Assembly (NCBI GenBank): GCA_018268715.1
Contig: JAFDVZ010000011.1
Coordinates: 62,001-126,000, forward strand
Reading direction: 5' to 3'
Length of the DNA stretch: 64,000 nt
From: Acidobacteriota bacterium
GTDB lineage: Bacteria; Acidobacteriota; Terriglobia; Bryobacterales; Bryobacteraceae
Below are positions 5,688 through 43,626 of the stretch, one piece after another. The position numbers and the translations under genes are program-made. Each line of letters starts with the position of its first letter. Position 1 is the stretch's first letter. The notes below the pieces were generated by a model that ran no database searches, had not been told where the DNA came from, and saw only the letters and a program-made list of their open reading frames with translations.

Positions 5688-7654
5688 TAGTCGTCGCCCC
5701 ATAAGGGCAGGCCCGTTGAGCCGTAGAGCAGGCAGCGCTGGTTCCACGGCGCACGGGTTTTGACGGCCAATGTTTCGTACAGGCGGCGCGCGATTTCGAC
5801 GCCTGTTTCGCGGCGGCCGTGATAGAGGAACGTCATCGCGGCGCACAGATTTTCGCCGACGAAGATGTTCATGCCGAAATCGCCCGATGGGTGGACGCGC
5901 GTGTCGAAGGGCTCGCCTTCGGGCGTCACGCCGTTGGTAAGACCGTAGGCGGTGGCCTTCATGTTCAGCTTTTCGATGGTCGCGAGCGCGCTTGCGACGC
6001 GGTCCTTCGGGAAGACGTCGCGCAGGCCCAGCAGGCGGGCGCACCATTCGCCCATGAGCTGGTTGGCGAGAACGACGTCGCTCGAGCGATTGGCCGTGGC
6101 GTTGCTCCACAGGCGATAGTAGCGGCCGGTCCACAGGCGCTCGTCGAAGGCCTTGCGGGCTTTGTCGAGCCGCTGGGCGCATTCGGCGGCGAAGTCGCGG
6201 TCGCCCGCCGCTTCCGCCATGGCGCGGCCGGAGGCGAGCGTGGCGAGCCAGGTTCCGGCGACGTAACTCGACACGCCTTCCCACGGCCACACGTCGTAGA
6301 ACTGGTTAGCGGGCCACGCCTCGCCGGGACGCACGTGGGGCTGCTCGTGGACCAGGCCGCAGCCATCGTCGTCGAGCGTGTATTGATAGCGGATGGCCCG
6401 CTTCGCGGATTCGTAGAAATGTTTCAGGACGCCCGCGTCGCCTGTGCGCAGGAAGAGGCGATGGACCATCTGCGCGAATTGGCCGGAGTTCAGCGGGTGC
6501 TGGCAGTGGTAGCGGGGGTCGCGCATGCTGGTGGGCTGGCCGAAGCTGAAGGGGATTTCGCCGTCCGAGATCTGAAAGTGGCGGAAGGCTGCGAGCGTTG
6601 TCTGTTCGAGTTCGGGGAAGAACCACAGCAGCGGGAAGTGCCCGTGGATGCGGCACACCATGGTTTCGACGATGGGACAGCCGGTGTGGCTTTCGCTGTG
6701 GGTGAACCAGCCGTTGTCGCCCCACCACTCGTCGGCGCGCGTGCGGGCGATCCAGACGGAGTTCTTCGCCAGGCTGTAGAGGCCTTGAACGAGGGCGTCG
6801 CGCAGCCAGGGCGGGAGGCTCGCGCGATAGATGGCCGCCTGCCACGCGCATACGCGGCGGATCAGATTCGGCGCGTTGTCGAGGGCGAAGGCGGCGGCTT
6901 GGTCGGCGCTCGCGAAGCGCTGCGAGTAACGGTTCACGTGGAGTTCGCTGCTCGAATCGCGCCAGGACGGGAAGGACCATCCCACGGCGACGGTGACGCG
7001 ACGGCCGGCGCCGGGGGCGAGGTCGAGTTCAACGGTGTGGGCGCCGTTGCTTTCCTTCGCGGACTGGGCGCGCAGGGCGAACGATCCGCCTTTGGGCGGC
7101 GCGGGGAACCGGAGGCGCAAGCTGATGCGCAGAGGGTCGACGCCGTGGTTTGTCGCGTCGATTTCGAAGATGGCGGCGGGGGTGTTCGATACGGCCGCGT
7201 CGCCGGGGATGAAGGGCGCGACGGCTCGGATGCCCAGGGTCAGCGGGATTTCGGGCAGTTCGGCGTGGAGGTCGGCGATCGGGTAGTGGCCCCAGAATTG
7301 GATGCGCGCGGCCGACAGGGGAATGGCGCGGGTCCCGCTTTCGATGGTGAGCCAATCCGCGTGGACGGGCTTGGGCGGGACGAGGTCTCCGAAGATGGAA
7401 CTGACGCCGATTTGGCCGTTGCCTTCGATGGTGAAATAGCCCGTGCCGAGTCCGCCGAGCGGCAGGCCGGAGCGCAGTTCGCCGCCATCGTAGATAAAGC
7501 CTGGGACGGGATCCGCAAAGCCGTTGGCGGCGATGGCAGTCCACTGGCCCACGGCGGCGGCGGTGAAGGGAAATCGCACCGCGGCCCCCTGTGGCGCGGC
7601 GGCGCCCGCGGCCCCCACGGCGAATCCAGCCAGCAGATCCCGACGACGCAGCAT
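5576..7654 (-). CDS. GH116-family (GBA2-like) beta-glycosidase, exported
   Basis: The 692-residue product begins at ATG 7654, five nt after an AGGAG ribosome-binding site, and carries a Tat-like leader (MLRRRDLLAGFAVGAAG). The open frame continues upstream but that extension is Ser/Arg-rich out-of-frame coding of the neighbouring pentapeptide gene. The N-terminal half shows the family GGLGTGYF motif; the C-terminal half is an alpha/alpha barrel. NQFYDVWPWEG aligns with the region that holds the acid/base Asp in human GBA2 and related GH116 enzymes. Known members hydrolyse beta-glucosides or beta-xylosides; the substrate here is unknown. It is divergent from the pentapeptide gene, and the two promoters appear to overlap at 7674-7681. 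Confidence 0.85.
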   Translation of the reverse strand: MLRRRDLLAGFAVGAAGAAAPQGAAVRFPFTAAAVGQWTAIAANGFADPVPGFIYDGGELRSGLPLGGLGTGYFTIEGNGQIGVSSIFGDLVPPKPVHADWLTIESGTRAIPLSAARIQFWGHYPIADLHAELPEIPLTLGIRAVAPFIPGDAAVSNTPAAIFEIDATNHGVDPLRISLRLRFPAPPKGGSFALRAQSAKESNGAHTVELDLAPGAGRRVTVAVGWSFPSWRDSSSELHVNRYSQRFASADQAAAFALDNAPNLIRRVCAWQAAIYRASLPPWLRDALVQGLYSLAKNSVWIARTRADEWWGDNGWFTHSESHTGCPIVETMVCRIHGHFPLLWFFPELEQTTLAAFRHFQISDGEIPFSFGQPTSMRDPRYHCQHPLNSGQFAQMVHRLFLRTGDAGVLKHFYESAKRAIRYQYTLDDDGCGLVHEQPHVRPGEAWPANQFYDVWPWEGVSSYVAGTWLATLASGRAMAEAAGDRDFAAECAQRLDKARKAFDERLWTGRYYRLWSNATANRSSDVVLANQLMGEWCARLLGLRDVFPKDRVASALATIEKLNMKATAYGLTNGVTPEGEPFDTRVHPSGDFGMNIFVGENLCAAMTFLYHGRRETGVEIARRLYETLAVKTRAPWNQRCLLYGSTGLPLWGDDYYSNLAVWAVPAALEGASAGEFGRGSLVSSIVSAGRA

Positions 7655-39196: not shown

Positions 39197-40006
39197 CTAC
39201 CTGCGGGAGCTGGCGGCGGCGACGCGATCGTGCGCCATCGCCAGCCGGTCCGCGATCAAGCCGTAGACGGTGGGATTAAACGCCAGGCCGATGTGCGTGC
39301 CGGGCACCTCGAAGTCGGTTTCGGGATCACCCGTCATGCAGTAGCGCCAGTCCACCACCCCGTCGCTGCGCGTATAGATGGCGGTCTCCATCACCGACGC
39401 TGGAAACGGCGACTTCAGCCGTTGCAGGAAGTCGCAGGTGCAACGGCCCGTGTAGCATTCCGGCAGCACGCCCCGTCCGTGCTGTTCCAGGATCTTGGCC
39501 CGCACCATGTTGGCGGCCTTCAGCACGCTCGGGTGAACCACCGTGCCGCGGAACGGAGATCCCATCGTGATCACCGACCCGATGTCCTTCGCCCGCTTGC
39601 CCGCCAACGACCGTGCGATGATCCCGCCCAGGCTGTGGCCGATCAGGTGGACCCGCCGCCCGGTGTCGCGCTTGGCCTTATTCAACGTTTCGGTGAGTGT
39701 CTTGCGGATGAGGAGGTTCGGACAATCGGCGTTCAGGCCGATCCCGGAGAAGTACGGCGTGTAGCCCATGCGCTTCAGCCACGCATGCATCTCGGTGAGG
39801 AACACATCCGTGCCCAGAAATCCGGGTATCAGAATCACTGCGGAGCCATCGCCGCGCGGCGCGCCCCACCCATAGAAAACCGGGCTTGCGCGCAGCAACA
39901 GGATCTCTACGCCAACCAGCGCCTCTTGCCAGATTTGAACATCTGGCGATGCCGTGTGATCCACCAGGGACTGACTCGGCAATACCGGCAACGCTTTCCC
40001 AGCCAT
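39197..40006 (-). CDS. Alpha/beta-hydrolase (lipase/triacylglycerol-type)
   Basis: A 269-residue alpha/beta hydrolase with oxyanion strand VILIPGFLGTD and nucleophile elbow GHSLGG (Ser125). The Asp and His of the triad are probably in the TRSDGVVDW and GTHIGLAFNP segments. The overall layout resembles class-I bacterial lipases or lecithin-cholesterol-acyltransferase-like enzymes. No leader is evident, so the protein may be cytosolic or use another export route. A TGTCAG-N10-CTGACA inverted repeat lies 68-89 nt upstream. Adjacent storage-lipid genes make a role in lipid turnover plausible but unproven. Confidence 0.85.
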   Translation of the reverse strand: MAGKALPVLPSQSLVDHTASPDVQIWQEALVGVEILLLRASPVFYGWGAPRGDGSAVILIPGFLGTDVFLTEMHAWLKRMGYTPYFSGIGLNADCPNLLIRKTLTETLNKAKRDTGRRVHLIGHSLGGIIARSLAGKRAKDIGSVITMGSPFRGTVVHPSVLKAANMVRAKILEQHGRGVLPECYTGRCTCDFLQRLKSPFPASVMETAIYTRSDGVVDWRYCMTGDPETDFEVPGTHIGLAFNPTVYGLIADRLAMAHDRVAAASSRR

Positions 40007-40177: not shown

Positions 40178-41866
40178 TCACGAACCCGTCGATACCGCCT
40201 GAGCCGTCTCCGAGCCTGTTTCCTCAACAACTTCCACGGTCGCGGCGGCTTCCACGACCGGCTCCGCCACGGCGGCTTCGACGACCTCCGGCACCGCCTT
40301 CCCGTTGTTGCTTTCCGCGACAACCGCCTTCTTGGCCACGCGCGTCCGGACGGGCTTGGTCTTGGAGCCGGCGTCCACCTGCTTCGCCGCCTTCTTCGCG
40401 GCGGTCTTCGGTCGCACCGGCTTCTTCGGCTTTTCCTCGGCCTCCGGCGCCGGCTCGCTGGCTTCCGCCGTGGCGGCCGTCGCCCGGGCTCTCAGCAGGT
40501 GGAAGGAATCCACCAGCAGGTCCCTGACGCGGCTGATGTCGGGTATCGCGACCGCATCGCCCGCGAAGTTCACAAACAGCTTCCCGTTATAGCTTTCGAC
40601 GGCGCAGTTCATGCCCATCTCATTGCCGATCGGGACGTAGGGGTATGCGGTCAACAATTCGCGGCCCAGCATGTACAAAGGAAACTGCGGCCCCGGGACA
40701 TTCGTGCACACCATGTTCCACGGCGGCAGCGGCAGGTTGTTGCCCAGCATCCCGAAAGCGACCTGGAAAGGCGCGGGCGCGGTCCCCAACCACTTCGCCG
40801 TCAGCGTGATGACGTCCGCCACGTGTCCCCTCTTCAGGCTTTCGGTGATGCGGTGGACTTCGTGCAGTAGCCGCGCCGGGTCGGCGATATCAAGCGGAAT
40901 ATTGATAGGCAGGAAGGAGATGGAGTTGCCCATGCCGGGATTGATCACATCGCGTCGCAGGTTCACGGGCGCCATCAGCCGCAGCACGCGGTCCTGCATC
41001 GAATGACCGTGGAACTCGCAGTACCGGCGCACCGCCAGCGTCACAATCGTCAGCACCACGTCGTTCAACGTGCCGCCCAGTGCGTCCTTCAGAGCCTTCA
41101 CCTCGGGCAGGGGAAGTTCCGCCCAGGCGAACTGCCGCGGCCCGAGCACCGGCTTGTTGAACGGCAACCGCTCCACCGCGGTGAACGGCACGGCCCCGGG
41201 AAACTGGTCGAGCGAATCGATCGGCGGCTGGCCCAGCATCGCCTGCGCGACGTTCAAGGCCTCCGACTGCGCCGATAGAATTCGCGTCGTGAACTCCTCA
41301 TAGGCGTTCACCAGCGCGTCGACAAACCGCTTGCCCGTATCCGGCAGCGGCGGCGCGTCGAACGGCGGCGCCTTGGGCAGTTTAGGGGGATTCCGTGTCT
41401 GGTCGAACAGGATGTTCATCAGCGCCACGCCCGCGATTCCGTCCACCAGGCAGTGGTGCACGCGGATCATAATGGCGCTTCGATGGCCCTTCAGCCCGTC
41501 CACCAGCAAGACGTCCCACAGCGGACGGTTCCGGTCCATGATCTTGGCGAAATGCTCGCCCGCCAGCGTCTCTAACTCATGATCCGTGCCGTGCTTCAAC
41601 CGCGCGTGGCTGAAATGGCGGTCGATCTGGAAATCCGGATCCCATTCCCAGGTCGGCAATCCGATGTGCAGAGGAGGAAACACCAGCCGCTGGCGATACC
41701 GGGGGATGAGGGGCAGCTTCGCCTCCACCAGGGCCTTCAGGCGGTCCATCGCGATGGGACCGTCGAAAACGCCGACGCTTCCAATGTGCATCGGCATTTC
41801 CTTCTTTTCGAGGTAAACGAACAGAGCGTCAAGGGGCGACAGGTGGTCGCCGGCCGAGTTCGACAT
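40178..41866 (-). CDS. Wax ester synthase / diacylglycerol acyltransferase with Lys/Pro-rich tail
   Basis: A 562-residue enzyme that esterifies fatty alcohols or diacylglycerol with acyl-CoA to form storage wax or triacylglycerol. The active-site motif HHCLVDG (His137, His138, Asp142) and the PLWDVL, NDVVL, and CTNVPGP-type blocks are intact; the normal catalytic part ends near residue 460. The remaining about 100 residues are disordered, with a KKPVRPKTAAKKAAKQ basic part and then an acidic Val/Glu-rich end, not typical for this family. The basic motif recurs in the phasin-like protein upstream. GAGGAG precedes the ATG, TATGAT lies farther up. Confidence 0.93.
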   Translation of the reverse strand: MSNSAGDHLSPLDALFVYLEKKEMPMHIGSVGVFDGPIAMDRLKALVEAKLPLIPRYRQRLVFPPLHIGLPTWEWDPDFQIDRHFSHARLKHGTDHELETLAGEHFAKIMDRNRPLWDVLLVDGLKGHRSAIMIRVHHCLVDGIAGVALMNILFDQTRNPPKLPKAPPFDAPPLPDTGKRFVDALVNAYEEFTTRILSAQSEALNVAQAMLGQPPIDSLDQFPGAVPFTAVERLPFNKPVLGPRQFAWAELPLPEVKALKDALGGTLNDVVLTIVTLAVRRYCEFHGHSMQDRVLRLMAPVNLRRDVINPGMGNSISFLPINIPLDIADPARLLHEVHRITESLKRGHVADVITLTAKWLGTAPAPFQVAFGMLGNNLPLPPWNMVCTNVPGPQFPLYMLGRELLTAYPYVPIGNEMGMNCAVESYNGKLFVNFAGDAVAIPDISRVRDLLVDSFHLLRARATAATAEASEPAPEAEEKPKKPVRPKTAAKKAAKQVDAGSKTKPVRTRVAKKAVVAESNNGKAVPEVVEAAVAEPVVEAAATVEVVEETGSETAQAVSTGS

Positions 41867-42062: not shown

Positions 42063-42980
42063 TTACGCCGGCTGAACCTGCTTGGTCAGGCGTGGACGCA
42101 CCGGACGCTTGGCGCGCGGCGCCTCTTCCTCGGCGGCTTCGCGGGCCTGCGCGCGGCGCGGCCGCATCACGACATCCAGAAGAGCCTTCTGGGCCGTGAC
42201 GAAGCTGTCCACCGTGTCGCGGGTGAAGCCGGCTGCGTTGAACTTCGGCGTGGGCGTCAGCACCTCCACCGCCCGGCGGGCGGCCTTGATGTTGATTTCC
42301 GACTGGCTGCCGGCCACGTCGAGCAGTTTCTTCTGCGCTTCAATGAAGGCGTCGGAAGCCTGGCGGGCGATCTCGGTCAGCGCCGTGGCGTCCCTCGGTT
42401 CGCCTTCCTCGCCCTCGGCCACGCGGGTCACTTCGTTGGCCACCATGTCGAGGAACTTCTTCTGCGCCCGCACGAACGTGTCGATGGCCTCGCGAGCCAC
42501 TTCCCCGCCCGACTTGCCGGCGAACTCCTCGCCCGACTTGGCGGCTTCCACCACCGCCTTGGCCTGGCGCGACGCCGTGGCCAGGAAGTGTTGCTGCATC
42601 TCGATCAGCGTATCCACGCTCTTGCCGAATACATCGGCGATCGCGGTCGCCGTCTTCGAGAATCCCACCCGGTCCTTCACTCCGCCCACCAGCAGTTCGG
42701 TCTGCGATTGCGCCAGATTCAGCACGATCCGCTGGGCTTCGATGAAGTTCGAGGTGGCCTCGCCGGCGAGTTCCGTCAGCGAGAATTCCGACTCGGGGAC
42801 CTTCCACGACAACACGTCGCGCACCGCATTGATGGTGAGCGAATTTTGCCTCATAACCAGGTCCAGCAGGATGCGCTGGGTGGCGAAAAAGCTCTCAGTG
42901 CCCTGCTGCACCAGCCCGGACACCATTTCGAGCGCGGACGACGCCTGCGTCTTCGTCGCGGTTCGGCCTGCTACTGGCAT
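42063..42980 (-). CDS. Phasin-like granule-associated protein with six repeats
   Basis: A 305-residue helical protein from ATG 42980 (AAGGAGAG ribosome-binding site). Six repeats of about 43-48 residues each contain an F-x-x-AQ-(K/R)-x-x-L-(D/N) core, starting near residues 30, 77, 123, 167, 210 and 258. This is the amphipathic helix pattern of phasins that coat polyhydroxyalkanoate or lipid granules, but ordinary phasins have one or two units. The C-terminus is basic (KRPVRPRLTKQ). Divergent from phaR, with a near-consensus promoter and a PhaR-type palindrome before it. Longer upstream frame is rejected because it runs through the promoter. Confidence 0.75.
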   Translation of the reverse strand: MPVAGRTATKTQASSALEMVSGLVQQGTESFFATQRILLDLVMRQNSLTINAVRDVLSWKVPESEFSLTELAGEATSNFIEAQRIVLNLAQSQTELLVGGVKDRVGFSKTATAIADVFGKSVDTLIEMQQHFLATASRQAKAVVEAAKSGEEFAGKSGGEVAREAIDTFVRAQKKFLDMVANEVTRVAEGEEGEPRDATALTEIARQASDAFIEAQKKLLDVAGSQSEINIKAARRAVEVLTPTPKFNAAGFTRDTVDSFVTAQKALLDVVMRPRRAQAREAAEEEAPRAKRPVRPRLTKQVQPA

Positions 42981-42996
42981 AGTCTCTCCTTCGTTT

Positions 42997-43011
42997 TGCT
43001 GCAATGCAGCA
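42997..43011. promoter_or_regulatory. PhaR-type operator 1, 15-bp perfect palindrome
   Basis: TGCTGCAATGCAGCA is a perfect palindrome about the A at 43004 and contains CTGC-N3-GCAG, the kind of site described for PhaR of Rhodobacter and related PHA regulators. It lies just after the expected transcription start of the phasin gene (-10 at 43021-43026), where a bound protein would block elongation. Confidence 0.75.
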
Positions 43012-43020
43012 TCCAGCCTG

Positions 43021-43049
43021 AGTATAGGCCTGCGTGGAGAATGTGTCAA
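43021..43049 (-). promoter_or_regulatory. Sigma70-type promoter of the phasin gene
   Basis: Minus-strand -35 TTGACA (43044-43049) and -10 TATACT (43021-43026) are separated by exactly 17 bp. This is the best consensus promoter in the window. It gives a leader of about 34 nt containing the palindrome and the ribosome-binding site. Confidence 0.8.
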
Positions 43050-43055
43050 TATGAA

Positions 43056-43070
43056 TTGTGCATTGCAGCA
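43056..43070. promoter_or_regulatory. PhaR-type operator 2, imperfect palindrome
   Basis: TTGTGCATTGCAGCA matches the perfect palindrome of operator 1 except at two outer bases in the left arm; it keeps TGC-N3-GCAG. Its centre is 59 bp from that of operator 1 and it lies 14-28 nt before the phaR start, suggesting autoregulation. Confidence 0.65.
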
Positions 43071-43083
43071 TGAGGGCCGGCCG

Positions 43084-43626
43084 ATGAAGACCGAAACGGT
43101 GACCATCCGCAAGTACGGCAACCGCCGCCTGTACGACACCTCCTCCAGCCGCTACGTCAACCTGGAGGACATCGCCGGACTCATCCGCAAGGGTGCCGAC
43201 GTCAAGGTGGTGGACGCCCGCAGCGGCGAGGATCTGACACGCGTGGTGCTCACCCAGATCATCACCGAGGATGTGAAGGGCCAGCCCTCCGGCCTCCCGC
43301 TCGAACTGCTCAAACAGATCATCCTCGCCTCCGACCACGCCCGCCAGGAGTTCCTCGCCTGGTATCTGCGGACCACCTTCGAGACGTATCACAAGGTGCA
43401 GGAATCGTTCCAAAGCCGCCTCACCGACGTCGGTTCGGCCGCCTTCGCGCCCTTGCAGAGAATCGGCGGCATGATCGCCAGCGCGCTCGCGCCCCAGGAA
43501 GGCCAGCCCTCCGGCGAGGTGGAGCAACTCCGCCGGCGCGTGGCCGAACTCGAGGCCGAACTGCGCTCCCGCCCGACTCCGAAACCCGCCCGGAAGTCGC
43601 CCGGCAAGCGCCCGCGCGCCCAGTAG
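43084..43626 (+). CDS. phaR: Polyhydroxyalkanoate synthesis regulator PhaR
   Basis: A 180-residue regulator. The N-terminal DNA-binding domain has the family signature TVTIRKYGNRRLYDTSSSRYVNL and LTQIITEDVK; the central helical part and the Lys/Arg/Pro-rich C-terminus follow. In PHA producers PhaR represses phasin genes and its own gene until granules bind it. ATG 43084 is preferred; ATG 43051 would add eleven residues but would place operator 2 inside the coding region. GAGGG lies 9-13 nt upstream. No PHA synthase lies in the window, so the storage polymer could be PHA elsewhere or wax/TAG. Confidence 0.93.
   Translation: MKTETVTIRKYGNRRLYDTSSSRYVNLEDIAGLIRKGADVKVVDARSGEDLTRVVLTQIITEDVKGQPSGLPLELLKQIILASDHARQEFLAWYLRTTFETYHKVQESFQSRLTDVGSAAFAPLQRIGGMIASALAPQEGQPSGEVEQLRRRVAELEAELRSRPTPKPARKSPGKRPRAQ

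Follow-up and report, generated by a model that had tools for sequence, protein, structure and literature searches.

PhaR and phasins are taken as indicators of PHA metabolism. In PHA producers, phaP and phaR are repressed as long as PhaR is free; PhaR is then drawn onto the surface of new granules, and the PhaP made in response displaces it (PMC9049629). The title of Yamashita et al. 2006 (cited in PMC3570403) describes the contact between PhaR and PHB as a nonspecific hydrophobic one, so that, going by this title, a neutral-lipid surface would be a plausible substitute. S. meliloti PhaR binds TTGTGCAGTGCAGCA (SMa1961) and TGCTGCACTGCAGCA (rpoE8) by EMSA; at phasin genes its paired sites flank the −35 box, and SMa1961 has one site between the −10 box and the start (PMC12542648). 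The R. sphaeroides PhaR site, CTGCNNNGCAG, has the CTGC-N3-GCAG form (PMC12542648), and PhbF of H. seropedicae reportedly protects TG[N]TGC[N]3GCAA in its own promoter (PMC3206438). In Rhodococcus, MLDSR, which is unrelated to PhaR, is sequestered by lipid droplets (PMC5504291).

The locus described here lies in a 64,000-nucleotide stretch of the genome of a soil bacterium of the Acidobacteriota, the whole of which is referred to as the window. It resembles the PhaR/PhaP circuit of Cupriavidus, Paracoccus, Rhodobacter, Herbaspirillum and Sinorhizobium (PMC9049629, PMC12542648, PMC3206438) in having a PF07879-domain regulator with a phasin target, a pair of TGC-N3-GCA palindromes around the phasin promoter, and an adjacent phaR that is probably autoregulated. 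Unlike that circuit, it has no detectable PHA synthase, the storage synthase being a WS/DGAT (wax ester synthase/diacylglycerol acyltransferase); its phasin is of a long repeat type outside the Pfam phasin cut-off; and its regulon is a single locus rather than dozens of targets. In Rhodococcus jostii, MLDSR/MLDS likewise comprises the regulator of a major lipid-droplet protein with two operators in a single promoter region, but MLDSR is of a predicted XRE helix-turn-helix type with a GNT(T/A)GCTNNTGCTANC box, and mldsr and mlds form one operon, whereas phaR and the phasin-like gene are divergent here (PMC5504291); it is an analogue, not a homologue. The haloarchaeal PhaR/PhaP of Haloferax mediterranei is also a regulator–phasin pair, but has an AbrB-like domain, a single phaRP operon and a PHBV store (PMC9049629). 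WS/DGAT clusters from metagenomes share with the locus a WS/DGAT with storage-related neighbours; the excerpted text of that report links no PhaR or operator to WS/DGAT, gives a WS/DGAT gene in ~8% of Acidobacteriota genomes and calls WE/TAG formation in the phylum unexplored (PMC10351704). In the open-access literature we found no report of PhaR linked with WS/DGAT.

A 103-bp spacer (42981–43083) separates the divergent phasin-like gene (minus strand) and phaR-type gene (plus strand). The original prediction had placed in it a perfect 15-bp palindrome and a second site matching at 13 of 15 positions, and both are there, neither being assigned a strand. Operator 1 (42997–43011), TGCTGCAATGCAGCA, is a perfect palindrome identical to TGCTGCANTGCAGCA at 14/14 fixed positions; operator 2 (43056–43070), TTGTGCATTGCAGCA, agrees with TGCTGCANTGCAGCA at 12/14 fixed positions, or 13/15 with the centre included. 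The CTGC-N3-GCAG form holds in full for operator 1, at the phasin promoter, but operator 2, whose left half is GTGC, fits only TGC-N3-GCA. The phasin promoter is of the σ70 type and close to consensus (43021–43049, minus strand; TTGACA-17-TATACT, score 11/12). As had been proposed, operator 1 lies right behind it, starting 9 bp past the −10 box and ending 16 bp from the phasin ATG (42980), which would correspond to about +1 to +16 of the transcript given the presumed start point. Operator 2 stands in front of phaR, also as proposed; it is upstream of the phasin −35 box, and 13 bp separate it from the phaR ATG (43084). As judged from their bases, both sites are within the range of experimentally bound PhaR sites, and operator 2 differs very little from the SMa1961 site that PhaR binds in S. 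meliloti (PMC12542648).

The phaR-type repressor gene (43084–43626, plus strand) encodes 180 residues with a PHB_acc_N DNA-binding domain and a C-terminal coiled coil. Its match to PF07879 (PHB_acc_N; E = 1.2e-26, 93 bits against a gathering score of 25) places the protein in that family. Its score against the TIGR01848 equivalog, 103.3 bits, is under the cut-off of 109.45 and the protein was not filed as that equivalog; because the PhaRs of ten relatives also score 94–106, the PhaC-linked ones of the phylum being equally low, this result does not discriminate. PHB_acc (PF05233) matched at the expected place with 15.8 bits (cut-off 27), and PhaC-linked relatives show no such match. The structure model has a confident mixed α/β DNA-binding domain, a helical middle and the C-terminal coiled coil; comparison of its fold found no solved relative.

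The phasin-like granule/droplet coat protein (305 aa; 42063–42980, minus strand) carries a repeated [FVI]xxxQ(K/R)xxLD motif, is encoded by a gene present in single copy in the genome and belongs, by family alignment, to a well-defined family. It is called phasin-like because its score against Phasin_2 (PF09361; E = 0.0027, 18.3 bits) lies under the gathering cut-off of 24.9. Its structure model, which is of low confidence, contains helices only. The WS/DGAT gene (40178–41866) follows 196 bp after the phasin gene on the same, minus, strand; its product is a member of PF03007 (E = 1.7e-54) and TIGR02946 (364.6 bits, cut-off 309.95), with the HHxxxDG motif intact as HHCLVDG at residue 137. Third in the presumed operon is a gene for a lipase-like α/β hydrolase (39197–40006, minus strand; GHSLG, PGAP1/palmitoyl thioesterase-like), a candidate neutral-lipid lipase and PhaZ counterpart. 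A scan for terminators between the genes gave nothing above chance. Strongly conserved homologues of the hydrolase, with 53–68% identity, occur in most loci, after the phasin or the WS/DGAT gene.

The best explanation of the locus, and in our judgement a likely one, is a PhaR–phasin titration circuit that reads neutral-lipid droplets in place of PHA granules. Rhodococcus uses lipid-droplet sequestration of the unrelated MLDSR; we infer that this locus is a PhaR version of that principle, in which PhaR would bind the sites and repress, the genes would be co-transcribed and the lipid droplet would act as the signal. Both palindromes would be operators of the PhaR-type repressor encoded alongside, a function that sequence comparison makes close to certain. 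Free PhaR would occupy operator 1, just past the −10 box of the phasin promoter, and keep transcription from initiating there; the transcript from this promoter probably continues into the WS/DGAT and hydrolase genes. Operator 2, on the far side of the promoter before phaR, may strengthen repression, serve autorepression of phaR, or both. Neutral lipid made by WS/DGAT (wax ester and/or TAG) would present a naked droplet surface that takes up PhaR; with PhaR titrated, phasin would be made, coat the droplet and displace PhaR, and repression would resume. Counted against this reading are the 196-bp gap from phasin to WS/DGAT and the fact that no operator was found ahead of WS/DGAT itself at the locus.

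Of 150 sampled genomes of the window's GTDB family, 29 are PF07879-positive. The family loci have the same palindrome before the divergent gene and a looser second site, YGCNNYGCAGCA, before phaR. In many relatives this second site and operator 1 are 66–69 bp apart, and in the window's genome the distance is 59 bp. The exact palindrome is present in 21 of the 29 PhaR-positive family genomes, nearly always as one copy (backwards control, 0). A search of named genomes with the phasin protein alignment alone returned 67 loci, all of them in Acidobacteriota; the same kind of contig search with a single PhaR sequence as query returned none. In this Terriglobia comparison, the perfect operator stands just before the phasin-like gene in 56/67 loci and an operator matching at least 13/14 positions in 62/67; TACTGC or GACTGC forms occur in four, and one contig ends at the operator region. 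Ten further perfect operators were found in the 67 loci (664 kb), and all ten sit before second phasin copies. Placement is fixed as well: 62 of the 66 promoters aligned have the operator starting 8–9 bp past the −10 box. The promoter itself reaches a score of 9/12 or more in 64 of these 66 relatives. At 13 loci the phasin gene has no adjoining phaR (some have a PhaR elsewhere on the contig) and the operator is kept, which argues for recognition in trans. The comparative genomic evidence, with 56/67 loci and a fixed promoter placement, makes the predicted conserved cis–trans pair of PhaR and its putative operator outside Proteobacteria well supported. We restrict the claim for operators to Terriglobia plus some other families, since no operator was found at the phaR promoters of families f10, f21 and f70 (L136–L140). 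The neighbourhood phaR–phasin–WS/DGAT–hydrolase recurs at these five loci, with no phasin detected in L139; their PhaR is of a more proteobacterial 'IKRYGNRRLYNT' type, and the TGC-N3-GCA operator is absent from their promoters.

Short as the motif is, it is hardly conceivable that the palindromes are chance occurrences. The genome search proposed with the original prediction found the exact pattern once in the whole 7.63 Mb, at the phasin/phaR spacer, and no site with one mismatch; the many random copies named there as an argument against the operators are not seen. The genome has 31 other palindromes with two mismatches and the backwards control 45; operator-like sites are thus not in random excess, and no further members of a PhaR regulon are visible in the genome at a stringency of up to two mismatches. 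In Markov-model trials for the 103-bp spacer, the fraction with a perfect copy was 5.5e-5 and that with two sites of at least 12/14 was 7.5e-5. A chance origin is, on the comparison of loci, already refuted by conservation, no perfect copy being found in those loci other than before phasins. That another regulator reads the palindromes, PhaR being merely a neighbour, is very improbable. CTGC-N3-GCAG palindromes could suit other dimeric regulators, but these sites match the bound PhaR sites of S. meliloti and R. sphaeroides, and the operator class shifts with the PhaR subfamily (11 changes on the tree, compared with 40.8 after shuffling). The exact operator is missing (0 copies) from the seven family genomes whose only PhaR is K- or D-type; in six family genomes with an 'NRK' PhaR motif the operator is TGACGC-N3-GCGTTA or a near form, and G035, with a 'DRR' PhaR, has TACTGCANTGCAGTA. 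At PhaR residue 15, R goes with a TGC core (67/67) and K with a CGC core (16/16), and D13 goes with a TAC arm. A residue–base code between PhaR positions 13/15 and the operator was rejected as replicated evidence; each switch occurs only once on the tree, so that the code is a lead and not independent evidence.

The regulated store is probably wax ester/TAG from the neighbouring WS/DGAT, because no PHA synthase or PHB_depo_C depolymerase is detectable: the window's genome, which is 99.77% complete, has no match to PhaC_N (PF07167), PHA_synth_III_C (TIGR01836) or PHB_depo_C. The earlier reading of the sites as those of a PHA regulator therefore keeps its PhaR-type operators and probably loses its link to PHA. 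The operator pair is of a known type; what is new is the association of PhaR and phasin with neutral-lipid synthesis. WS/DGAT scored over the cut-off in 20/150 family genomes, and 20/20 of these are PhaR-positive (Fisher p = 3e-18, ancestry not fully corrected). The nine PhaR-positive family genomes without it comprise six of K-type, two with PhaC, and G049, which is 84% complete. A phylum sample of 297 Acidobacteriota genomes, 61 of them PhaR-positive, gave WS/DGAT over the cut-off in 39 (17 families); PhaR was present in 39/39 of these versus 22/258 others (p = 2e-33; by genus p = 2e-19; ancestry not fully corrected). Within family f2, PhaR-positive genomes have WS/DGAT (G222, G270, G358, G413) or PhaC (G233, G389), never both. 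By coordinates, 12 of the 20 family genomes and 13 genomes of other families have WS/DGAT no more than 10 kb from phaR. The set of phasin, WS/DGAT and hydrolase genes is found again in several orders, and most relatives have the hydrolase gene linked to that for phasin or WS/DGAT. On the other hand, the next gene after phasin is WS/DGAT in only 7/67 loci (the hydrolase in 24/67), some genomes (f47) have phaR adjoining phaC and WS/DGAT elsewhere, and 13 PhaR-positive phylum genomes have neither WS/DGAT nor PhaC; these points count against the lipid reading.

An ordinary PHA circuit, in which an undetected or unusual synthase makes PHA granules that PhaR senses as in Proteobacteria, is an unlikely alternative to the droplet-reading circuit. 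Supporting it, PhaC is present in three of the 29 PhaR-positive family genomes (G027, G093, G141), where a class III-type PhaC adjoins phaR and the exact operator is the same, and PhaR accompanies PhaC in 23 of the 25 phylum genomes with strong PhaC matches. But PF07167 and TIGR01836 both detect the three family PhaCs and a Caulobacter control, and they match neither in the window's genome nor in 25/28 other PhaR-positive family genomes, among which G032 has only a 20.7-bit TIGR01836 match; PHB_depo_C is likewise missing here, and the linked synthase is the WS/DGAT. Somewhat less probable again is a relict circuit, in which phaC was lost, PhaR and phasin were kept for another role (e.g., as a chaperone or nucleoid phasin) and WS/DGAT is incidental. 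Phasins of PHA producers have been reported to have additional roles, which counts in its favor, as does the lack of both synthases in the 13 PhaR-positive genomes. It does not agree with the strict implication from WS/DGAT to PhaR across 17 families, with the repeated physical linkage in differing gene orders, or with operators ahead of phasin–WS/DGAT pairs that lack phaR, exemplified by a second exact operator in L114 and L115.

For Acidobacteriota as a whole, it is an even call whether PhaR–phasin is primarily a sensor and coat of neutral-lipid droplets, PHA being one store among others, and whether, in dual-store genomes, the circuits are kept separate by PhaR duplicates whose operators have diverged, the PhaC locus having TGCTGCANTGCAGCA and the lipid locus TACTGCANTGCAGTA. 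G027 and G093 have a PhaC-linked canonical PhaR and a lipid-locus 'DRR' PhaR with differing operators, and this coexistence of paralogues suggests insulated paralogous circuits. If the droplets that PhaR and phasins serve in this major soil phylum are of wax ester/TAG, storage annotation would change in thousands of genomes, and PhaR would become a general sensor of hydrophobic storage surfaces. The circuit also provides a concrete hypothesis for how coat is matched to droplet surface in bacteria beyond Rhodococcus, in a phylum whose neutral-lipid storage is called unexplored in the excerpt cited above (PMC10351704). A dedicated single-operator regulon and subfamily-specific operators would make it easy to test.

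Several further loci show variations. The 'DRR' paralogue subtype, as opposed to 'NRR', uses TACTGCANTGCAGTA or a near form in L025/L109, L026/L110, L034/L118, L117, L212, L214 and L216. Loci L119–L124 (G017, G033, G056, G114, G081, G010) have a 'LIKRYDNRKLYDT'-type PhaR and TGACGC-N3-GCGTTA-type operators close to the phaR start; neither WS/DGAT nor PhaC was found in these six genomes. The phylum genomes with PhaR and neither synthase are G154, G169, G170, G204, G208, G215, G223, G227, G281, G294, G325, G355 and G369. In L116 (G067), a second exact operator at 7276 lies ~50 bp before a gene for a 406-aa lipase-like α/β hydrolase (6007–7224; PGAP1/DUF676), possibly a storage-lipid lipase under the same control.
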